NCBI GenBank assembly: GCA_023150835.1
Contig: JAKLKB010000154.1
Location: 1 to 27,033 of the forward strand
Direction: 5' to 3'
Length of the DNA: 27,033 nucleotides
From: Myxococcota bacterium
GTDB lineage: Bacteria; Myxococcota_C; UBA6777
Part shown: positions 299-26,948 of the stretch, one piece after another
Layout of the letters: each line of letters starts with the position of its first letter
How positions within the stretch are numbered: the first letter of the stretch is position 1
Translations under genes and position numbers: made by a program
Notes under the pieces: model-generated
Databases searched by the model: none
Told to the model about the DNA's origin: nothing
The model's input: only the letters and a program-made list of their open reading frames with translations

Positions 299-1342
299 TC
301 ACACGTTCCCAAGCACTGTACGACTTTGAGCTTGCAAAAACATCAAGAGGCTGCGCTGCGTTTGTGCGGAAAGCCCGTCCCATCGGGCAGCCTCCTCTTC
401 TCGCAACACAGCCAAGATATCTTCCCAAAGCAGCGCTTCGATCTGGGAGCGTCGAGGATCGTCGATCGTGCGAGGCCGTCCGACTTTCGAGATCGCATTT
501 TGAGCGCGTTGTGGTGTCGCAAGCTCTGTGATCCGCTTCTCCCAAAAAGCGATATCGACCACTTCAGAACGCGAGAGACGCGCAGGGTGCGCAGACCAAC
601 GCTGTGCTTGGTGATAGCGTGCATCTTCCTCAAAAGCCCGATGCTTTCGCTTTAAGAGCGGGCGGATCGGCCCTTTGGGGCTTGCGATCCAGATCGCGTC
701 GGCAGGGCGCAAGACAAAACCTTCGGCCTCGTTCGGCCAAGGCAAAGCAGGAAGCCCCCGCGTCTGTGGGATATGGGTCGAGAATTGCGGGGAAAGCGCA
801 AGCCCGTCTTCCATGCGGCCTCGAAACAACAACGGAGCAGCTTCCATTTTGGCCGAATCTGCGGCTTTTCGCATCGCGTCGTAGTGAAAGAAATGCAGGT
901 TTTGAGATCGATCGAGCCAAGCGATATCAAACACCGCAAAGCCGATATCAGGGCGATAATACACCCCAGTCTGCACAGCTTGAACGCCTTCTTCGAGGGG
1001 AACGTCTGGGTGTGGATACGCCCCGCCGTACAATTCTCCGTACACCCAAACTTCCGTTGCATCGGCCTGTTTTTCTTGTATCTCCCAAGTCATCGGCACG
1101 ACAGCGTCCGAGATCGTCGCATGGATGCGCTCGTGTCCAAAAAACGATTCGTACTCTTCCAAAAAGCCCTTGCGCTTCGCAAAGCGCACAGATCGGCCAT
1201 CACAGACCACACAAAAGTTTGCACCGTGGATCTTTTCTGTGGCGATCCACTCTTGCTTTTGTAGCCGCCGCCAGTCCGAGGCTTCCAACCGCCATGCTTG
1301 GCTGTCTTCGCTGATCTTGGGGTAAGAGAAAAATCCGCTCAT
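299..1342 (-). CDS. ATP-dependent RNA ligase, T4 Rnl2-like
   Basis: This 347-residue protein is predicted to seal RNA 3'-OH and 5'-phosphate ends through a covalent lysyl-AMP. All nucleotidyltransferase motifs are visible: motif I EKIHGANF with nucleophile Lys37, motif III VYGELYGG (about 100-107), motif IIIa FAVFDI (135-140), motif IV EGFVLRP (207-213) and motif V LLKRKH (about 229-234). The KIHGxNF form of motif I is typical of the T4 Rnl2/editing-ligase group. About 110 residues follow motif V and look helical, as in the C-terminal domain of that group. The ATG at 1342 is chosen because GAGGTGA lies 6 nt upstream; a GTG at 1348 would add two residues. It is last in the cassette, behind the HD-Pnk gene, whose stop is linked to this start by two tiny ATGA-overlapping ORFs. 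Family assignment is firm; the natural RNA substrate is unknown. Confidence 0.93.
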   Translation of the reverse strand: MSGFFSYPKISEDSQAWRLEASDWRRLQKQEWIATEKIHGANFCVVCDGRSVRFAKRKGFLEEYESFFGHERIHATISDAVVPMTWEIQEKQADATEVWVYGELYGGAYPHPDVPLEEGVQAVQTGVYYRPDIGFAVFDIAWLDRSQNLHFFHYDAMRKAADSAKMEAAPLLFRGRMEDGLALSPQFSTHIPQTRGLPALPWPNEAEGFVLRPADAIWIASPKGPIRPLLKRKHRAFEEDARYHQAQRWSAHPARLSRSEVVDIAFWEKRITELATPQRAQNAISKVGRPRTIDDPRRSQIEALLWEDILAVLREEEAARWDGLSAQTQRSLLMFLQAQSRTVLGNV

Positions 1343-1403
1343 ATCCACTCACCTCGATAAGAGAAAAATCCGCTCATATCCGAATAGAGAAAAATCCGCT
1401 CAT
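1339..1403 (-). promoter_or_regulatory. Triplicated ligase start with chained ATGA overlaps
   Basis: The first 18 nt of the ligase gene, encoding MSGFFS, occur three times, with ATGs at 1403, 1377 and 1342. The HD-Pnk stop TGA (1402-1400) overlaps the first ATG. The first mini-ORF (MSGFFSIRI) ends in a TGA overlapping the second ATG. The second (MSGFFSYRGEWI) ends in a TGA overlapping the third ATG, the real ligase start. The ancestral state was probably a single HD-Pnk/ligase ATGA overlap, expanded by tandem duplication of 26 and 35 bp. A ribosome could in principle reinitiate stepwise. The extra copies may equally be neutral, because the third start has its own GAGGTGA. Confidence 0.75.
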
Positions 1404-2743
1404 GCGCGCCCACTCCGAACAGAACGCACCAAGATATCGCGGGAGTCATAGGCCGTACAGCCCTCTGCATCGACAAAGATCGTGCGATGCGCTTCGTGGA
1501 TGTCGGGCCATTCGAGGGCTGCGAACTGCCGTTTTAAGGCCGAAGTGGGGATACTTTTCTCGCGTTGTCGATTGCGCCGAAAGATCTCGTTCATCGGTGC
1601 GCAAAAAACAACTTGGGTCGTGTGTACGCCGTAATCACGGGCGATCTGGATCAACATCGAACGGCTATCCCGACGGAGACTGGTGGCATCCCAGATCACA
1701 TCGCGTCCTTTGCGCAAAGCTTCTTTCAGGCGATCTCGGGCTTGATGCAAAACACGGGTGTTCTCGTGCTGATCGCCCGCATCGCCTGTGACATCTTCGC
1801 GGATCTGATCCAACGATATCACTTCTGAGGAACCTGCATACTTCGTGATCCATGTGCTTTTTCCCGCCCCTGACGGCCCCACCAACAGCGTCAGCGCCCC
1901 GCGCCCTTCGCGTACAAGGCGATAGGCCCGTGACACCGCTTCTTCGGGGCGCGTGTAGAGACCTTCTGCAAGATCCCACAGGCTTTCTCGCCACAGCCGC
2001 TCATGTTGCGTATCGCTCTCGCTGTGAAAGGTCATCCGCAACATCTCGCGCAAAGTATCTGCTCCCCACCCCGCCTGCTTTGCGTACCATCCTTCGAGAC
2101 CCCGTTGGCCGAACAATCCTGCACCTTGCCAGCCACCCGATTCTTCGCAAAGCATCCGAAACAACTCCATGATCTCGATCTGTTCTTGTTGATCGGAACA
2201 GATCCGCCCCAACATATCGGCTTTTTCGAGCAAGTACAGCGCTTGAAGATCGCACGCCTCCGCCAACATCCACTGTCTTCCAAACGAAACGTCGCGTTTG
2301 ACAAAGTGTTTCGGCTCGTGATGCGATCCCACCAACGCCACGATATCCAGCACAAGGCGCACAGGGATCCCCATCTCCAAAAGGCGGTACACCAGATAAG
2401 ACGCCCCACGCTGCGCGTGATGTGGTGCAACGATCCGCAGCCGACCGTCGATCTCTTGTTCGCGGGTGGTCAACGGCTTGCCGATATCGTGAAGAAATGT
2501 CGCCATCCACAGCACAAACCAACGTTCCGCAGAAAACCGCCACCCCTCTATGCGCAACAGTTCGGCCAGCCGTTCCAACACCATCGCGGTATGGATCGCA
2601 ACATCGCCCTCCCCGTGCCATTCGGGATCTTGGGGCGTCACAGACAATTCGCGCAGTAGCGGCAGGGCTTCGGCGCATACTTCAAGGCCATCTTCCCACC
2701 CGATGATTCCGCCCTCTTGGATCGCTTGGAGATACGCTTCCAT
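1400..2743 (-). CDS. HD-Pnk: HD phosphoesterase/polynucleotide 5'-kinase RNA end-healing enzyme
   Basis: This 447-residue protein is predicted to heal broken RNA ends. The N-terminal HD domain (about 40-260) carries FLHDIGKP with His85-Asp86, further His at 51, 108-109 and 141-142, and an Asp in LLEKADMLGR (about 176), fitting a metal-dependent 2',3'-phosphoesterase. The C-terminal kinase (about 283-447) has P-loop GPSGAGKST (289-297), an SLDQIR motif with Asp312 and Arg315 like the catalytic pair of Pnk, WDATSL (351-356) and Arg-rich lid RRNRQRE (389-395). This order matches the HD-Pnk family known from Runella slithyformis. The ATG at 2743 has an AGAAGAGG ribosome site about 6 nt upstream. 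A longer in-frame reading to 3052 runs through a dispersed repeat and is rejected. Its stop overlaps the first copy of the ligase start as ATGA. It sits between two RNA ligase genes on the same strand. Confidence 0.9.
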   Translation of the reverse strand: MEAYLQAIQEGGIIGWEDGLEVCAEALPLLRELSVTPQDPEWHGEGDVAIHTAMVLERLAELLRIEGWRFSAERWFVLWMATFLHDIGKPLTTREQEIDGRLRIVAPHHAQRGASYLVYRLLEMGIPVRLVLDIVALVGSHHEPKHFVKRDVSFGRQWMLAEACDLQALYLLEKADMLGRICSDQQEQIEIMELFRMLCEESGGWQGAGLFGQRGLEGWYAKQAGWGADTLREMLRMTFHSESDTQHERLWRESLWDLAEGLYTRPEEAVSRAYRLVREGRGALTLLVGPSGAGKSTWITKYAGSSEVISLDQIREDVTGDAGDQHENTRVLHQARDRLKEALRKGRDVIWDATSLRRDSRSMLIQIARDYGVHTTQVVFCAPMNEIFRRNRQREKSIPTSALKRQFAALEWPDIHEAHRTIFVDAEGCTAYDSRDILVRSVRSGRA

Positions 2744-2796
2744 CACACGCCTCTTCTCGTTTCGCAGATAGGGATCACTTCTTCGGTCGTTTTTAT

Positions 2797-2919
2797 GGGG
2801 CTTTGCCCCATGCCCCACAAGGGAGCGCGGCTCCCTTGACCCCGTGTTGGCGAAGAGAGCATCGTTTTTTGACAGAAACAGCACGATCGCTTGAAAAACC
2901 ACGAACACGGGGTTTTTTA
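2797..2919 (+). repeat. Dispersed repeat family B, copy 1
   Basis: A 123-bp element between the small RNA ligase and HD-Pnk genes. It begins with a GGGGC-TTT-GCCCC hairpin (2797-2809). Near its end the perfect inverted pair CCCCGTGTT (2840-2848) and AACACGGGG (2904-2912) is followed by six Ts (2913-2918). Related copies lie at 18196, 20365, 22797 and 26787, with a fragment at 12351. On the plus strand the long stem plus T-run resembles an intrinsic terminator, but the operon is transcribed in the opposite direction. Confidence 0.8.
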
Positions 2920-2967
2920 TCCACGAACAGACACCTCTGTTCTCTGGAAGCGGTGTCTCGCTTCGAG

Positions 2968-3606
2968 CTACTTGGGTTGTGCGAGTCCGTTGGGGACGAC
3001 CTCTGCGTGCATCCAATGGACATCGGTTTGAACGTGATGGCTTCGCACCCACTTGGCGACGAAATCTCCGAAGGACTCATGAGTAAACCCGATGGTTCGG
3101 CGGACAACGTACCCCTCGCTGCGCTGTGTGTCGACAGCAAGAGCGAGGCGGCGCAACGCTTTTTCGTTCCAGATCCCTCGGTAGAGTTCTTTGGGGGTTG
3201 AGAGTCCCAACATCGCGGCCCATTCGAGCGTTTCATCCCAAGACAAACTGCAATTGTCATGATCCCAGATCGAAAAGAGCAAAAAATACGATGGCAGTTC
3301 TTCGTAGAAGATCGAGTGGCAAGCGAACAAGTTTTCTCCACAAAGCCGCCATCCTTCGGGCAAAAGATAACCGATCTGCTGCTGAAGCTGTTTGACCCAA
3401 GAACGAGACGGATGGTGTCCTGAAGACAGCGAACGGGCGTGGATGCCGTCTCGATAGAGCGTTGTATTTTCACCGTCCATCTTTTCGGTAACGACCACCT
3501 CACGGCCTTCCCAGACCGAAAGATCCCATACCGTCAGATCATCCTCCCCCACCCCGCAAGACCATGGCAGATGGGGAGTTCGTGGATATTTATAACGTGA
3601 TTCCAT
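2968..3606 (-). CDS. Small RNA ligase family protein
   Basis: This 212-residue protein is a second covalent nucleotidyltransferase, distinct from the Rnl2-like one. Motif I is TEKMDGENT with Lys42 as predicted AMP acceptor. It is followed by a YRDGIHARS stretch, motif III CGENLFA (89-95), motif IIIa YFLLFSIWD (107-115), motif IV SEGYVVR (163-169) and motif V VAKWVR (183-188). The N-terminus YKYPRTPHLPWS matches the usual start of this bacterial/phage RNA ligase group, which supports ATG 3606; GAGAGG lies about 8 nt upstream. An in-frame start at 3648 would add 14 residues. It ends shortly after motif V, so no long C-terminal domain is present. It is first in the cassette, 224 nt ahead of HD-Pnk, with a dispersed repeat in the gap. 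Substrate preference cannot be read from sequence. Confidence 0.88.
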   Translation of the reverse strand: MESRYKYPRTPHLPWSCGVGEDDLTVWDLSVWEGREVVVTEKMDGENTTLYRDGIHARSLSSGHHPSRSWVKQLQQQIGYLLPEGWRLCGENLFACHSIFYEELPSYFLLFSIWDHDNCSLSWDETLEWAAMLGLSTPKELYRGIWNEKALRRLALAVDTQRSEGYVVRRTIGFTHESFGDFVAKWVRSHHVQTDVHWMHAEVVPNGLAQPK

Positions 3607-5261: not shown

Positions 5262-5451
5262 GTCGTTGGCGACGGGGAGGCATGGTAGCACCGACGTTTG
5301 CGAGTTCCAAGGAAAATTCGTTCGACTCGAAAAAGAAAGTTGAACCTGTGATCGCCCTGCTCCGTTAGGGGTGCCAGAACAAATCAAACCGCATGGGTAT
5401 TCCCCCTCATTTTCGAGAAAAACAAGCGCCCTTCTTTTTGGAGACCCCACA

Positions 5452-6570
5452 ATGGCGAATTTACAGACGGCGATCCAACCCAACGATCTACGTCCGGGCT
5501 TTGAGTTCGAGACGATCTTCCAAACCAACCGCAAATCCGAAAGCGCCTTTCGGTTTCGGGCCCGCCATATCAACGGACGACGCGCTCCCAAGGTGATCTT
5601 GTGCAACGATGGGCGTGTTCAGCCCGGGAAACCCTGCCAAGTCCGCATCCGCAACATCCGAAAGCCTGATAGCCGTCAGCGCGGATACATCGAAGTGGAC
5701 TTCTTGCGCCAACGGGGCTTTCAGTTGGATGACAAGATCTACGTCGATCCGTTGCAGTTGCGAAAACTCCAAGCGCTGCTCGAAAGCGGGATGAATATCT
5801 TGCTCGATGGCCCCCAAGGTTCGGGGAAAACGGTACTTTCTCGTAAAGTCGCCGAAGCCCTTGGCATGAATTACATCTTTTTTAACTGTAGCGCGATCTA
5901 CGAAGCGACGGACTTTCTGGCTTCGCTTCAGATCCGCGCAGGTGCGAGCGGCCAAGCCGAAACCGTTTGGATCCCCACCGATATCCTGCGCGCTCTCGAA
6001 GCCGCCCACGCCAACCCCGCACAGCGCTATCTGATCTTTTTGGACGAGTTCAACCGCTGCCGCGAGATGGCGCGAAACGGTATCATGCCCGCGCTCGATT
6101 CGACCCGAAAACTCTACAATCCGATCTCTGGCTCCATGCTTCACATCCCCCCGAACGTGATGTGGATCGCAGCCATCAACAACGGTGCGCAATTTACAGG
6201 CACAACCCACGTCGATCCCGCACAAATGGATCGCTTTGCACCGCTCAAGATGGATTATCCGCCACCCGAAGAAGAGATCCGTCTCTTGGCGGCCAAGTAT
6301 CCGCGTGCTTCGCGCAAAGAGATCGATCGCATCGTGCGCGCCGCCAACGCCATCCGCAAGGATGAAGCCCTTCAAGTCGATCTCAGTATGCGCGCCACCG
6401 AAGAAGCCTGTACGCTCCTCGAACATCCGAACTTTGCGGAAGCAACAGGCGATGCCTTGGTCGATATCCTCAAAACCAGCTTTTGTGGCCGTTATCTCGG
6501 TCGCTGGGATGATGAAACCACCGATGCAGGGATGATCTGGCAAGTGATCGTCCGCGCTCTTGAGATCTAA
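5452..6570 (+). CDS. MoxR-type AAA+ ATPase
   Basis: This 372-residue protein has a C-terminal AAA+ module with Walker A GPQGSGKT (120-127), Walker B YLIFLDEFNR (Asp198-Glu199), a sensor-1-like Asn in WIAAINN (about 243) and a probable arginine finger in QMDRF (Arg261). The FNRCREMARNGIMPALD segment after Walker B is typical of MoxR/CobS-like ATPases, which remodel or load partner complexes carrying VWA proteins. Residues 1-105 form a separate, probably beta-rich domain rich in Arg that I do not recognise. ATG 5452 is preceded by GGAG at 8 nt; an upstream in-frame start at 5371 lacks a better site. The VWA-protein gene begins 17 nt after its stop, so the two form an operon and very likely act together. 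Substrate is unknown. Confidence 0.88.
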   Translation: MANLQTAIQPNDLRPGFEFETIFQTNRKSESAFRFRARHINGRRAPKVILCNDGRVQPGKPCQVRIRNIRKPDSRQRGYIEVDFLRQRGFQLDDKIYVDPLQLRKLQALLESGMNILLDGPQGSGKTVLSRKVAEALGMNYIFFNCSAIYEATDFLASLQIRAGASGQAETVWIPTDILRALEAAHANPAQRYLIFLDEFNRCREMARNGIMPALDSTRKLYNPISGSMLHIPPNVMWIAAINNGAQFTGTTHVDPAQMDRFAPLKMDYPPPEEEIRLLAAKYPRASRKEIDRIVRAANAIRKDEALQVDLSMRATEEACTLLEHPNFAEATGDALVDILKTSFCGRYLGRWDDETTDAGMIWQVIVRALEI

Positions 6571-6587
6571 ACCAACGAGAAAAAAAC

Positions 6588-9500
6588 ATGAATCTGCAAC
6601 AACGCTTTGATGAACGCCAAGCCTCTCTAACGCAGGCCAAAAACAGCCAAGGCTCTTTGCGCCTCGAAGCAATTGATGCGCTTGGAAAGGGCGGATACGC
6701 CGACCTCGAAGTCCTGCTATTCTTGCGCGCTGGCCTTGTTGCAACGAGTGTGGGCGAAGGGATGGCTTGTGTGCGCACCCTGTACCGCCTGCAAGGGGAT
6801 ATCTGTTTACCTTGGATCATCGAAGCGCTGCCCTCGATGCCACGGGGCGTTGCGCGAGAAGCCGCTTCTTGGCTCACCGAACAAGGGCATCGCGGCAAAC
6901 GAGAGCTTACACGGCTGCTCGATCACAAAGAAGACACGCTGTTTGCGATGATCTCGGTGCTGTTGTTTGAAGAAGCCCCCGATATGGTAGCCGATTGGTG
7001 CAAGCGCCGTCTTCCTCAACAAGACGAAGCCCGCGCTCAGCGTGCGCTCGGTCTCGCCGTGTATCTGCTTGAGGATGGATGGCAAAAAGAAAAGAAGCCG
7101 AAACGACGCCAACAACGAAACGATATGCTTTTGCTGCTTTTGCGCCAAAAAGACCACGCCAACGAAACCATCCGCGAGGCCGTCGCAAAAGCCCTCAAAG
7201 AAGCCAAAGATCAAGATCCTTTGTTTGTCGCAGCCTTTCGTTTGCCGTCGATGGATGCCCAAGAAAAGCTCGGTGTATTGGGGATGTTGGAAACCAAGGG
7301 CCGCGAACAACACGCCGATTGCATCGAGCCTTTGATCGACGAAACCAACGAAGAAGTGTTTTTGACAGCATTTCGCGTGATCTGCAAACTCGATCCATCG
7401 CGTCGGCACAAATGGTTTGAGCGATGCGTCCAAACCACGGCCTCTTCGCGCTTTTTGACCGCGATCTCGATCACCAAAGCCGCCAACGATCACGAAGTCT
7501 GGAACGATCTGTTGCAAGCCCCCGCCATGTGGGGCGGTATGGAACGCATCGAATCGATCAAAGCCTTGTGCGAAGTGTTTCCTCGCTACAACAACGCCAC
7601 ACGCAAAACAGAGTTCGTCGAGATCCTTCGCCGTTATGCCAGCGATCCGACCGATGGCGTGCGCGAGACGGTCTTTCCGCAGCTTGCGCGCCTCGCGACC
7701 CCCGCAGAGGAAAGCCTCTTCATCGCGGGCGTCTCGGACTCGACGGCTACCGTTCGTGAACATGCCTTGCTCGGACTCCAACAATGCAGCCCCGAAAAAG
7801 CATGGGAACCCGCGATCGCTCTGTGTCGAGATGGCGCATTGACCGTCAAATGCGCTGCATACGGCGTCCTTTTACATGACGTTGCGCGCTGCCCCAACAA
7901 GATCTTTTTACAAGCCTGTCGCGAAGAAGACGCAACACTCCAACAACGCGCAGCTTCAAGCATCTCTCGATTGCCCGAAGCTCTGTTTCGTCGGTTGGTC
8001 GGACCCTTGCTAACCACCCGAAGCCAAACCGTCCAAGCAACGCTCGAACGCATGGCTCCGCTTTGCGAAAAAGACGAACAGTTGGCCTTGTTGCGCAAGG
8101 GTCTGCTCCAAGCCCATCCGAGCGGCATCTCGGCCATCTGCAAGGCTCTTTTTGAGCAAAGCCCGCAGCCGTGGACTGATCTCGAAGAAGCCTTGCCCAA
8201 TATGCGCCCTGTGGTGCGTGCAGCCCTTGTAGCGGTCTTGCGCCTAGACGCTTCGGAACAAGCACACCAGATGTTGCGCCATCTGCTCAAAGATGCGGAT
8301 GCTGAAGTTCGCCGCTGTGCGCTCGAAGCGCTCCAAGAAAAGTCTCGCGAAGAGGCGATGGATGCGGCACTGACGATGCGCGACGACGAAAACGCTGCGA
8401 TCCGCCTTGCCGCGATCCAACTCCTGCGCACACGCACCAGCGATGCAACGTTGGCGCTGTTGCTGCCGATGGCGCGAGACGAAGACGCCAGCGTTCGGCG
8501 CGAAGCGCTCGATGCGTTGTCAGCCTACGATGATCCCGAAGTCTTGAGCGAACTGGTTAGCTCTGTGAACGATGTGGATGAGGATATCAAAACCTTCGCC
8601 AAAGAGCTGTTGCAACGGAACGCAGAAGCTGTCCCCGCGCTGCGCCATGCGCACCGTCGTAGCTTCTTTTGGGACGATAGTGATCTCCCCGCAGGGATGC
8701 CTGTGTGGGAACGCTTGCACCAGCAAGTCGACGAAGTGCGGATGTGGGCAAGCCGTATCGGCCAGCTTTTGCTCGGCGCGCCTGTCTTGGTTCACCAATA
8801 CCGTCAAGGACTTGGCCGAACATGGCGGCGCAGCAAAGACGGGGTGATCGAGATCGAATTGTCGGATACACCGATCACACAAGGGCATCCCTTTGGCGAA
8901 GAGATCGTGAAAGGCTTGGCCCTCCACGAGATCGGACACCACTTGTATGACTTTGGAGTTCGCGGTTTCCCCACCGTTCGAGGGATCGCCCGATCCGAAG
9001 GACTCGGGCACTTGTTTGATGTGTTGATCGACGAACGCCTCGAACGCCGCTTGCGTTCACGACGCCCGATGTGGGGGATCTATTTTGATCGCCTTGCATC
9101 GTACGCCTTTGCGCAGCGTTGGCACCGACTACCGCTCCAAGAACTCGCAACATTCCTAGAGCGTTCGGTCGAAGAAGTGCGCGAAGATATCGCAAACGGC
9201 CTACTGCCCGGGATCTTGGTAGAAGCAGGTGAAGTCCTCACCGAAGGCCGCATGATGGCGCGCTTCTTTGGCGGTTTTCGCAGTCGTCGCATCGAGGATC
9301 TGCGGATCGCCAACGCCGACAGCGTGCTTTTGCGAGACAGCGATCTTCTCCGTATCCCCGACGCTTTAGCGCCCGAAACAGCCTTTTTGTGGTGCTTGCG
9401 CTGCGGCTTTGACCCAACGCTTTCGCCTGATCCACGCATCGCCCAAGCCATCGCCCTTGTGCAAGGTGAGTTCCGTCATCTCGAACATGCCGAGATCTTG

Positions 9501-10532
9501 CAACTCGCACGCGATATCACCGCGATCTTGGGCCATCCCGAAGATCCTTGCTGCAAAGAACAGCGTCAGCGTCGTCGCCAAAAACTGAGCGGCCTCGGCC
9601 ATCTGCGCAGCATTATGCAGCGTGTCAAACACCGGATGCGTGAAGTCGGAACGCTCCCTTCCCAAGGTCAAAAGATCCGAGGTTGTGGCGTCCGCAAACA
9701 AACACGCGAGATCATCTATGAACGCAAGCCCAGCGGCGAAAAAGGCGAGGGAGGCCAAACCCTCCACCTTGGCGCGCAGCTTGATTTCCCTTTACTCGAT
9801 CAAATCCAGAAATTCGATCGCAACGCAACGGAACAAACCGTCTTGTGCAAGAAAGTTCGGCCTTTTGTGCGCTTGATGCGTGCCTATTTTGAGCGGCTTG
9901 GTCGAAAAAATGTGGACGAGTATGCTTCCCGGCGTGGACGACGCCTTGATATGGGGCAGATCCGCAACGCTTGTGTGCGGCCCCATCTCAATGTCCTCGT
10001 TCACAGCGAAGAGATCCATACCGCCGATCTCTATATCGGCCTATTGATCGACCGTTCGGGTTCGATGTCGGGTGATAAACTCGAAAGTGCCAAAGCCTTC
10101 GGCACCTTGCTTTGCGAAAGCGCCAAAGGCTTGCGCGGCATCCAAGGCCACGTCCACGCTTTTGATGACAACACATGGTATCCGCTCGGTGACTTCGAGT
10201 CGAACAACATCGCCTCCCTCAGCTCAGGCGGCGCAAACAACGATGCTGGCGCTCTTTTGCGCGCCGCAGAACTCGCACTCCAAAGCAAAAAGCGGCAAAA
10301 GTTGTTGATCATGATCAGCGATGGCTCGCCCACCGAATGTTCTGTCGAGTCGCTCAAAAAATTGGTCGAGATCCTCGGGCGCGAACACGGTATCCTTTGC
10401 GCCCAAGCTGCCGTCGAAACTCTCCCCGAGATCGCCTTCCCCCATTATGTCGATCTCAGCCAATATCGCTTTGGTGATGCAGTGCAGCGCTTTGGAAAAC
10501 TCCTGATCCGACTCACCCAACACGTCGCATAA
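6588..10532 (+). CDS. Giant HEAT-repeat/HExxH metallopeptidase-like/VWA protein
   Basis: This 1314-residue protein has three parts. Residues 1 to about 690 are helical repeats of HEAT type, clearest at 565-690 where units such as DEDASVRREALDAL recur. Residues about 697-960 contain HEIGHH (780-785) and, about 30 residues later, VLIDERLERR (812-821). This matches the HExxH plus (N/D)xxEDxRIE pattern of the metallopeptidase-like domain found ahead of VWA domains in DUF2201/CobT-like proteins. Residues about 1150-1314 form a VWA domain with MIDAS DRSGSMSG (Asp1155, Ser1157, Ser1159) and the later SDGSP Asp (1245). No signal peptide or membrane segment is seen, so it is probably cytoplasmic. The MoxR ATPase just upstream is the expected partner that acts on the VWA domain. 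Peptidase activity is not certain; the domain may only bind metal. Confidence 0.85.
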   Translation: MNLQQRFDERQASLTQAKNSQGSLRLEAIDALGKGGYADLEVLLFLRAGLVATSVGEGMACVRTLYRLQGDICLPWIIEALPSMPRGVAREAASWLTEQGHRGKRELTRLLDHKEDTLFAMISVLLFEEAPDMVADWCKRRLPQQDEARAQRALGLAVYLLEDGWQKEKKPKRRQQRNDMLLLLLRQKDHANETIREAVAKALKEAKDQDPLFVAAFRLPSMDAQEKLGVLGMLETKGREQHADCIEPLIDETNEEVFLTAFRVICKLDPSRRHKWFERCVQTTASSRFLTAISITKAANDHEVWNDLLQAPAMWGGMERIESIKALCEVFPRYNNATRKTEFVEILRRYASDPTDGVRETVFPQLARLATPAEESLFIAGVSDSTATVREHALLGLQQCSPEKAWEPAIALCRDGALTVKCAAYGVLLHDVARCPNKIFLQACREEDATLQQRAASSISRLPEALFRRLVGPLLTTRSQTVQATLERMAPLCEKDEQLALLRKGLLQAHPSGISAICKALFEQSPQPWTDLEEALPNMRPVVRAALVAVLRLDASEQAHQMLRHLLKDADAEVRRCALEALQEKSREEAMDAALTMRDDENAAIRLAAIQLLRTRTSDATLALLLPMARDEDASVRREALDALSAYDDPEVLSELVSSVNDVDEDIKTFAKELLQRNAEAVPALRHAHRRSFFWDDSDLPAGMPVWERLHQQVDEVRMWASRIGQLLLGAPVLVHQYRQGLGRTWRRSKDGVIEIELSDTPITQGHPFGEEIVKGLALHEIGHHLYDFGVRGFPTVRGIARSEGLGHLFDVLIDERLERRLRSRRPMWGIYFDRLASYAFAQRWHRLPLQELATFLERSVEEVREDIANGLLPGILVEAGEVLTEGRMMARFFGGFRSRRIEDLRIANADSVLLRDSDLLRIPDALAPETAFLWCLRCGFDPTLSPDPRIAQAIALVQGEFRHLEHAEILQLARDITAILGHPEDPCCKEQRQRRRQKLSGLGHLRSIMQRVKHRMREVGTLPSQGQKIRGCGVRKQTREIIYERKPSGEKGEGGQTLHLGAQLDFPLLDQIQKFDRNATEQTVLCKKVRPFVRLMRAYFERLGRKNVDEYASRRGRRLDMGQIRNACVRPHLNVLVHSEEIHTADLYIGLLIDRSGSMSGDKLESAKAFGTLLCESAKGLRGIQGHVHAFDDNTWYPLGDFESNNIASLSSGGANNDAGALLRAAELALQSKKRQKLLIMISDGSPTECSVESLKKLVEILGREHGILCAQAAVETLPEIAFPHYVDLSQYRFGDAVQRFGKLLIRLTQHVA

Positions 10533-11813: not shown

Positions 11814-11834
11814 AAAAGGCAAAAACCCCGTCGC

Positions 11835-12231
11835 CGTGCTTTCCGCACTTTCCGTACTTTCCGCACTTCCGCACTTCCGCACTTCCGCACTTTCCGTACT
11901 TTCCGTACTTTCCGTACTTTCCGTACTTTCCGTGCTTTCCGTGCTTTCCGTGCTTTCCGTGCTTTCCGTGCTTTCCGTGCTTTCCGTGCTTTCCGTGCTT
12001 TCCGTGCTTTCCGTGCTTTCCTTTCCGTGCTTTCCGTGCTTTCCGTGCTTTCCGTGCTTTCCGTGCTTTCCGTGCTTTCCGTACTTTCCGCACTTCCGCA
12101 CTTCCGCACTTCCGCACTTTCCGTACTTTCCATACTTTCGGTATTTTCCGTACTTTCCGTACTTTCCGCACTTCCGCACTTCCGCACTTTCCATACTTTC
12201 GGTATTTTCCGTGCTTTCCGTGCTTTCCGTG
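11835..12231. repeat. Tandem array of 9-bp and 8-bp units
   Basis: About 44 tandem units occur. Most are the 9-mer CTTTCCGTG or its A variant CTTTCCGTA; runs of an 8-bp unit CTTCCGCA are interspersed. The unit variants are clustered in blocks. A block with 8-bp units followed by the variant CATACTTTCGGTATTTTCCG occurs twice (about 12090-12150 and 12165-12210), showing higher-order duplication. Because 9 is a multiple of 3, all six frames stay open, which yields long meaningless ORFs (poly VLS, FPC, KHG, EST). The array ends 400 bp upstream of the hydrolase gene. Confidence 0.9.
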
Positions 12232-12305
12232 GACTCTTCTTTGCTGTGCGCCCTCTGCATGATGCCCGCGATTTGTACCCATGTAAGAGGCGGGGCTGGG
12301 GGTGA

Positions 12306-18131: not shown

Positions 18132-18195
18132 ATTAGACACCCTCTACCCCCCACGCTTTCGGCCCGATTGATCACATCTTGATGGCGCAGTAGAT

Positions 18196-18317
18196 AAAAA
18201 ACCCCGCGTTCGCACCCGTCCAAGCGACAGAGTCGTCTGGTTGAAAAACACCTGTTCTCTTCGCCTACACAGGGTCAAGGGGGCCGCGACCCCTTGCGGG
18301 GCGTGGGGCAGCGCCCC
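18196..18317 (-). repeat. Dispersed repeat family B, copy 2
   Basis: A minus-oriented copy. On the plus strand it runs from AAAAAACCCCGCGTTCG to GGGGC-AGC-GCCCC (18305-18317). The 16-bp tandem array starts within its last bases. Confidence 0.75.
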
Positions 18318-18511
18318 ACAACAAAAAAGCCCCACAACAAAAAAGCCCCACAACAAAAAAGCCCCACAACAAAAAAGCCCCACAACAAAAAAGCCCCACA
18401 ACAAAAAAGCCCCACAACAAAAAAGCCCCACAACAAAAAAGCCCACAACAAAAAAGCCCACAACAAAAAAGCCCCACAACAAAAAAGCCCCACAACAAAA
18501 AAGCCCCACAA
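18314..18511. repeat. 16-bp tandem array growing from a family B element
   Basis: Twelve tandem units of CCCCACAACAAAAAAG plus a partial copy occur; two units are 15 bp (one C missing). The first CCCC belongs to the end of the adjacent family B element, so the array seems to have expanded from that end. All long ORFs here (poly-Gly/Phe/Cys/Val on the minus strand, Lys/Pro/Thr on the plus strand) are repeat artefacts. Confidence 0.9.
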
Positions 18512-18541
18512 ACGCCGAATCATTGCGATCGCCACAACGCC

Positions 18542-18570
18542 TTGACTTTTCCCCATCAAAAAGAGATACC
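18542..18570 (+). promoter_or_regulatory. Candidate sigma-70 promoter for gnd
   Basis: TTGACT (18542-18547) and GATACC (18565-18570) are spaced exactly 17 bp, about 107 bp ahead of the gnd start and just right of the tandem array. The -35 is strong and the -10 weak. It would let gnd be transcribed despite the repeats separating it from zwf-pgl. Confidence 0.35.
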
Positions 18571-20364: not shown

Positions 20365-20485
20365 GGGGCTTTGCCCCACGCCCCACCATAGACGATCGCC
20401 CCTTGACCCCGTGTCGGCGAAGAGAACAGGCGTTTTTCACACAAACGACTGCATCGCTTGGCAGGCTGCGAACACGGGGTTTTTG
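20365..20485 (+). repeat. Dispersed repeat family B, copy 4
   Basis: A full copy from GGGGC-TTT-GCCCC to AACACGGGGTTTTT, with CCCCGTGT at 20407-20414 pairing with ACACGGGG. It lies between gnd and the convergent OmpA-type gene. Its T-run end could act as a terminator for plus-strand transcripts. Confidence 0.75.
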
Positions 20486-26306: not shown

Positions 26307-26371
26307 CGCCTGAACCCGTTGGAGGGGCGGTAGTTGGTCCAAGGTCGCGAAGCGACGGGGTGAGGGGTGAA

Positions 26372-26621
26372 CCGCGATGGGGATACCATATAGCCAGACT
26401 GGCATCAGGCCAGCCATGTGGCGATACCATACAGCCAGACTGGCATCAGGCCAGCCATGTGGCGATACCATACAGCCAGACTGGCATCAGGCCAGCCATG
26501 TGGCGGTGCCATACAGCCAGACTGGCATCAGGCCAGCCGTGTGGCGATACCGTACAGCCAGACTGGCATCAGGCCAGCCGTGTGGCGATGCCATACAGCC
26601 AGACTGGCATCAGGCCAGCCG
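26372..26621. repeat. Six-copy 41-bp tandem array
   Basis: GGCATCAGGCCAGCC recurs at 26401, 26442, 26483, 26524, 26565 and 26606, an exact 41-bp period with few substitutions. Each unit contains a small hairpin CTGGC-ATCAG-GCCAG. Because 41 is not a multiple of 3, frames rotate between units. No unique spacers are present. The array resembles a bacterial minisatellite (VNTR). Confidence 0.9.
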
Positions 26622-26786
26622 TAACAGAACATTCTTTCGCCGTCATGTTTGAGGTGCTTGTGATGGCCTCAAATCGGATGATGGCCTTGAGTCGAGTGAT
26701 CTGTGTCAGGCGCTTGCTTGAACGAGCGAGTGTGTGTACCTTTCCAGCGCAAACGGTTCGAGTTGTGGCAGAAGCAGCGTAGTCCT

Positions 26787-26907
26787 AAAAAAAGCCGTGT
26801 ACGCAGCCACCCAAGCGGTGCCGTTGTGGGTTTGAAAGACCACTGTCCGTCCCGCCAATACGGGGTCAAGGGGACGCAGTTCCCTTGCGGGGTGTGGGGC
26901 AGCGCCC
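26787..26907 (-). repeat. Dispersed repeat family B, copy 6
   Basis: A minus-oriented copy running on the plus strand from AAAAAAAGCCGTGTACGCAG to GGGGC-AGC-GCCCC (26895-26907). It is diverged in the middle. Confidence 0.7.
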
Positions 26908-26948
26908 CATAGGCGTTAGGTTAAGCGCTTGTTGGCCCCCCACCCCAG

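Follow-up and report, generated by a model that had tools for sequence, protein, structure and literature searches.

A two-ligase cassette around an HD-Pnk protein in a Myxococcota genome and its probable role in RNA healing and sealing

A three-gene cassette in Myxococcota

The draft genome (7.56 Mb) of a Myxococcota bacterium of the UBA6777 lineage (assembly GCA_023150835.1) contains, at positions 299-3606 of contig JAKLKB010000154.1, three intact minus-strand genes that probably make up a bacterial RNA healing-and-sealing cassette. The window analyzed here is the whole stretch of 27,033 nucleotides. In order of transcription, the genes encode a ligase of the type of Deinococcus radiodurans DRB0100 (P0003), an HD-Pnk protein (P0002) and a ligase resembling T4 Rnl2 (P0001). 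The original prediction of three reading frames with complete ligase motifs (EKIHGANF and EKMDGENT) and an HD plus P-loop kinase protein is borne out by the open reading frames and by Pfam. HD-Pnk and the DRB0100-type ligase form a conserved core pair found across bacteria and giant phages.

The three proteins

The DRB0100-type ligase (2968-3606, minus strand, 212 amino acids) comprises an adenylyltransferase domain only, with motif I EKMDGENT and its lysine at K42. It matches Pfam RNA_ligase (1.4e-32) and is a full-length homolog of D. radiodurans DRB0100, with 55.6% identity over 98% of the length in a tblastn comparison and up to 62% identity to other Deinococcus homologs. K42 aligns with K40 of DRB0100 (numbering from PMC1997131), and the nucleotidyltransferase motif residues are invariant or nearly so in 71 homologs. 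A search of the PDB with the sequence profile of this family returned nothing significant, the best matches being fatty-acid-binding proteins at E of about 0.04, and the fold was settled by the predicted structure. This model, with a predicted local distance difference test score (pLDDT) of 91, is a bare adenylyltransferase domain that aligns with T4 Rnl2 (Z 15.5) and NgrRnl (Z 15.3); an archaeal RNA ligase and RNA editing ligase 1 also fall within Z 14.0-15.5, while DNA ligases score lower (Z 12.6 or less).

HD-Pnk (1400-2743, minus strand, 447 amino acids) joins an N-terminal HD phosphohydrolase (Pfam HD, 3e-08) to a C-terminal 5′-OH polynucleotide kinase (AAA_33, 7e-29) and is a predicted 2′,3′-phosphoesterase/5′-kinase end-healer. 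The metal-binding set of the HD domain is complete (H51, H85-D86, H109, H141 and D176), and the kinase retains its P-loop, general base and lid arginine (G294-K295 in the P-loop, D312, R315 and R394); all of these residues are invariant in 25 homologs. In the predicted structure (pLDDT 86) the HD part resembles the HD domain of an enzyme that processes tRNA and the kinase part resembles the kinase of C. thermocellum Pnkp, each at Z 20.

The Rnl2-like ATP-dependent RNA ligase (299-1342, minus strand, 347 amino acids from its ATG) consists of a nucleotidyltransferase domain with motif I EKIHGANF and an Rnl2 C-terminal domain. The former matches Pfam RNA_ligase (PF09414, 2e-18) and the latter, which is specific to Rnl2, matches T4_Rnl2_C (PF18043, 3.4e-07) with 30.9 bits against a cut-off of 27. 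The two ligases, initially described as unrelated-looking, thus fall in the same Pfam RNA_ligase superfamily. Motifs I-V are all present: in the numbering from an alternative GTG start the motif I lysine is K39, and E38, K39, H41, G42, R59, E105, F140, D141, E209, G210, K233 and K235 are invariant among 43 homologs. Against TIGR02307, the curated Rnl2 equivalog, the protein scores 124 bits, under the cut-off of 197, and it is therefore termed Rnl2-like and kept out of that equivalog. The family profile matches RNA editing ligase 1 (3e-33) and T4 Rnl2 (1e-28) in the PDB. The higher score of the kinetoplastid editing ligase with this bacterial family offers a clue to where editing ligases came from.

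Conservation and recurrence of the gene set

KLAP109, a sister Myxococcota genome, carries the same trio as a tight tandem operon in which fewer than 40 nucleotides separate the DRB0100-type ligase gene from that of HD-Pnk (224 in the window) and the HD-Pnk stop and Rnl2-like start overlap as ATGA. Protein identity between the two genomes is 96% for the DRB0100-type ligase, 94% for HD-Pnk and 97% for the Rnl2-like ligase, and the ratios of nonsynonymous to synonymous substitution rates (dN/dS) are 0.08, 0.09 and 0.097, respectively, indicating purifying selection on all three. Intact genes, identities of 94-97%, dN/dS of 0.08-0.10 and catalytic residues invariant in 25-71 homologs together place the observation far beyond chance. 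Two further members of the same family have part of the set in the cassette: NP119 has HD-Pnk and the Rnl2-like gene, and M3003 has the DRB0100-type ligase and HD-Pnk, with its Rnl2-like gene on another contig.

The core pair extends well outside this family. In a sample of 386 genomes from across bacteria, only three from outside the family (G286, G276 and G249) encode a full two-domain HD-Pnk, and in all three the DRB0100-type ligase is adjacent to it or fused with it; matches confined to the HD domain (model positions of about 20-210), with no kinase part, were not counted as HD-Pnk. The fusion in G249 (C1:8475414-8477138) is a single frame of 850 amino acids, and a plasmid of Embleya sp. 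NBC_00896 (L038:5944-7731) likewise holds both proteins in one open frame. On viral contigs the ligase lies within 6 kb of HD-Pnk at 12 of 19 full-length HD-Pnk loci, a set that includes a few near-copies, and two of these 12 loci carry tRNA genes, 14 in one (L136:1706-9002) and four near the other. HD-Pnk and the ligase are adjacent on the same strand, as in the operon of D. radiodurans, in both the window and KLAP109; no macro-domain gene corresponding to DRB0099, a poly(ADP-ribose) glycohydrolase (PARG), lies between them in the window, in KLAP109 or in Deinococcus QL22. Separately, a viral Rnl2-like gene (L156-L158) has a highly divergent HD-Pnk-like gene (1e-10) immediately behind it.

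When 84,980 species genomes were scanned, 273 Rnl2-like relatives were found, and the neighborhoods of 80 of them were examined. All three genes occur together at six of the 80 loci, spread over four phyla (Myxococcota, Chloroflexota, Bacteroidota and Armatimonadota): KLAP109, Minicystis, Byssovorax and metagenome-assembled genomes (MAGs) of Chloroflexaceae, Cytophagales and Armatimonadota. NP119 is the one locus among the 80 with HD-Pnk and the Rnl2-like gene only. The gene order of the window is ligase, HD-Pnk, Rnl2-like; it is ligase, Rnl2-like, HD-Pnk in the three MAGs, where the DRB0100-type ligase is more divergent, and in Minicystis and Byssovorax (Polyangiaceae) the Rnl2-like gene accompanies a divergently transcribed ligase/HD-Pnk pair. 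On the Rnl2 tree, in which the deep branches are long and have little support, the linked members require four to five state changes. When the neighbors of Rnl2-like loci were clustered, HD-Pnk was the sole nucleic-acid end-processing enzyme that recurred across phyla. In these comparisons the Rnl2-like ligase joins the core only occasionally; its tree suggests that it was recruited independently several times, and from its recurrent linkage in differing gene orders we read the trio as a working set that has been assembled repeatedly. A lack of co-occurrence in related genomes would have counted against the original prediction, but the three genes do occur together, both in the sister genome and in further phyla, and the prediction is not refuted on this count.

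The Chloroflexaceae operon (L070:955-6954) is an unbroken run of genes for, in this order, a methyltransferase, the divergent DRB0100-type ligase, the Rnl2-like ligase, HD-Pnk, a 'Swiss army knife' phosphatase and SUKH-like and radical-SAM-like proteins. The methyltransferase was considered as a candidate Hen1 and rejected, its score on TIGR04074 being 15.7 bits against a cut-off of 340.

Proposed function and alternatives

The domains and their co-occurrence support the idea, put forward in the original prediction, that the cassette heals and seals broken ends and that HD-Pnk does the healing; we infer RNA as the substrate from the ligase families and the phage context. A nuclease cut would leave a 2′,3′-cyclic phosphate (or a 3′- or 2′-phosphate) and a 5′-OH on the RNA. 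The HD domain would strip the phosphate to give a 2′,3′-OH and the kinase domain would phosphorylate the 5′-OH using a nucleoside triphosphate, after which a ligase would adenylylate its own motif I lysine, transfer the AMP to the 5′-phosphate and seal the break. The Rnl2-like ligase may be an added sealer, which by analogy with T4 Rnl2 would suit bridged RNA or nicked RNA duplexes, and the two ligases may have different tasks, as the original prediction proposed. In a bolder and rather doubtful version, a two-ligase complex has one HD-Pnk feeding both this duplex-nick sealer and a DRB0100-type ligase that is perhaps active only with partners; if true, it would explain both the inactivity of DRB0100 alone and the repeated assembly of the trio.

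Several observations weigh against an RNA healing-and-sealing cassette. Neither partner lies within 7 kb of the Rnl2-like gene at 73 of the 80 loci (within fewer bases on short contigs), a repeat insertion splits the operon of the window itself, and no nuclease or inducer was identified for the cassette. DRB0100 formed an AMP adduct in vitro and sealed none of the DNA or RNA substrates tested (PMC1997131), and under the name LigB it is reported to join DNA when PprA is added (PMC3893189). The HD-Pnk/ligase pair lies beside UDG and DinB in Deinococcus QL22 and beside UmuD and a Y-family polymerase in Pseudomonas FeN3W.

The two ligases might be redundant backups, the Rnl2-like gene having been laterally recruited without a separate role, a possibility compatible with RNA repair that differs only on the second ligase. 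Redundancy is favored by the scattered linkage that recurs on the Rnl2 tree and by the retention of a single ligase in the cassettes of NP119 and M3003. Yet both ligases are under similarly strong purifying selection and the trio has come together on more than one occasion, with differing gene orders, and redundancy is on balance somewhat unlikely.

Alternatively, the Rnl2-like protein may be the one true ligase of the cassette and the DRB0100-type protein an adenylyltransferase that does something else: it might AMPylate the 5′ ends of RNA, activate ends on behalf of a partner or serve as a scaffold. Its reduction to an adenylyltransferase domain and the transfer of AMP without sealing by DRB0100 would fit such a role. 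On the other hand, the nucleotidyltransferase motif residues are kept in 71 homologs, and the protein shares a single frame with HD-Pnk in Embleya and G249 and is often the sole ligase adjoining it; a non-ligase function is unlikely.

Finally, the cassette could mend DNA breaks: HD-Pnk would heal 3′-phosphate/5′-OH DNA ends, the DRB0100-type ligase (LigB) would join them with the help of another protein, and nicks that are hybrid or contain ribonucleotides would fall to the Rnl2-like ligase. Radiation induces DRB0098-DRB0100, for which the first proposal was a complex that repairs double-strand breaks (PMC1274311), DRB0098 phosphorylates 5′-OH DNA (PMC1997131), and the PprA-dependent joining by LigB and the DNA-repair neighbors in Deinococcus QL22 and Pseudomonas FeN3W point the same way. 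DNA repair is a live rival, though the less likely function: both ligases group with RNA ligases by Pfam, and the DRB0100-type ligase also by fold, and no DNA-repair gene adjoins the cassette within the window. Rnl2-type enzymes, moreover, require RNA on the 3′-OH side, as is the case for T4 Rnl2.

The distribution shows that repair modules of this type are built repeatedly from the same few parts. DRB0100, which is radiation-induced in Deinococcus, has had no settled function; its family is now placed beside or fused to HD-Pnk in bacteria and giant phages. A third partner, from the Rnl2 group, recurs with them, and a specific RNA-versus-DNA test of healing and sealing with three proteins becomes possible.

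Other features of the window

The 224-nucleotide spacer between the DRB0100-type ligase and HD-Pnk genes (2744-2967, minus strand) holds a copy of a dispersed repeat resembling a miniature inverted-repeat transposable element (about 2790-2924), as judged from repeat pairs and the sister comparison. The repeat family has the ends CCCCGTGT...ACACGGGG, and its copies in the window lie at about 2790-2924, 18190-18324, 20399-20484 and 26786-26909; the copy inserted between the two genes is absent from that spot in the sister genome. Between the HD-Pnk stop and the Rnl2-like start (1340-1403, minus strand), the sequence and its comparison with KLAP109 reveal three copies of an 18-bp start-region sequence, ATGAGCGGATTTTTCTCT, starting at 1403, 1377 and 1342. 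For the Rnl2-like gene, the ATG at 1342 is the preferred start and matches KLAP109; the alternative GTG at 1348 falls inside the tripled region.

PADLOC and NCBIfam gave no curated or defence-system name for the trio. RtcB, a direct ligation route, is encoded on another contig of the same genome. Divergent from the cassette, positions 5371-10532 encode a MoxR-like AAA ATPase followed by a 1314-amino-acid protein with HEAT repeats and a von Willebrand A domain, a pair of the chaperone/regulator type. The window also contains three tandem arrays (11816-12251, 18268-18551 and 26337-26661), whose repeat periods are roughly 9, 16 and 41 bp.

Comparison with known systems

HD-Pnk of Runella slithyformis is a bifunctional 2′,3′-phosphoesterase/5′-kinase with the same two-domain architecture as the HD-Pnk of the window. 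The Rnl2-like ligase shares the nucleotidyltransferase domain and motifs with T4 Rnl2 and kinetoplastid RNA editing ligase 1 (REL1), and the Rnl2 C-terminal domain with T4 Rnl2. It belongs, however, to a bacterial family, below the TIGR02307 cut-off, with a GELxGGxYPHPxVP motif that resembles the sequence of REL1.

The bacterial Pnkp-Hen1 and Pnkp1-Rnl-Hen1 complexes (PMC4411300) likewise combine healing with ATP-dependent sealing and have a related kinase domain. In contrast to these complexes, the window lacks a Hen1 methyltransferase and places healing and sealing on separate proteins. Healing of the 3′ end in complexes of the Pnkp-Hen1 type is carried out by a metallophosphoesterase, a task that would fall to the HD domain in the cassette of the window. 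Modular bacterial RNA repair systems are already an established idea, reportedly described by Burroughs and Aravind in 2016. A survey of jumbo phages gives a similarly modular picture of RNA repair in phages, with several RNA ligases in one genome (PMC7824862).

A close parallel is found in D. radiodurans, where MP1 carries DRB0100, DRB0099 (macro/PARG) and DRB0098 (HD-Pnk) in that order, with the RNA ligase DRB0094 (DraRnl) about 2 kb further on the opposite strand. As in the window, one operon holds both HD-Pnk and a DRB0100-type ligase (the two ligases are 56% identical), and a second RNA ligase of another family, Rnl5, is nearby. Unlike the Rnl2-like ligase of the window, this second ligase is outside the operon and is not of the Rnl2-like kind, and the window has no counterpart of the macro-domain gene DRB0099. 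The latter is a PARG that may clean ADP-ribosylated RNA or DNA ends (PMC11833690), and DRB0094 and DRB0098-DRB0100 have been described as candidates for repair that are induced by irradiation or linked to the recovery that follows it (PMC1274311). The original prediction singled out the two ligase classes in one cassette as unusual; the recurrence at other loci and the precedent in D. radiodurans (PMC1274311) show that they are no peculiarity of the window. The placement of two ligases beside one HD-Pnk is uncommon, yet recurrent, and has its precedent in Deinococcus.

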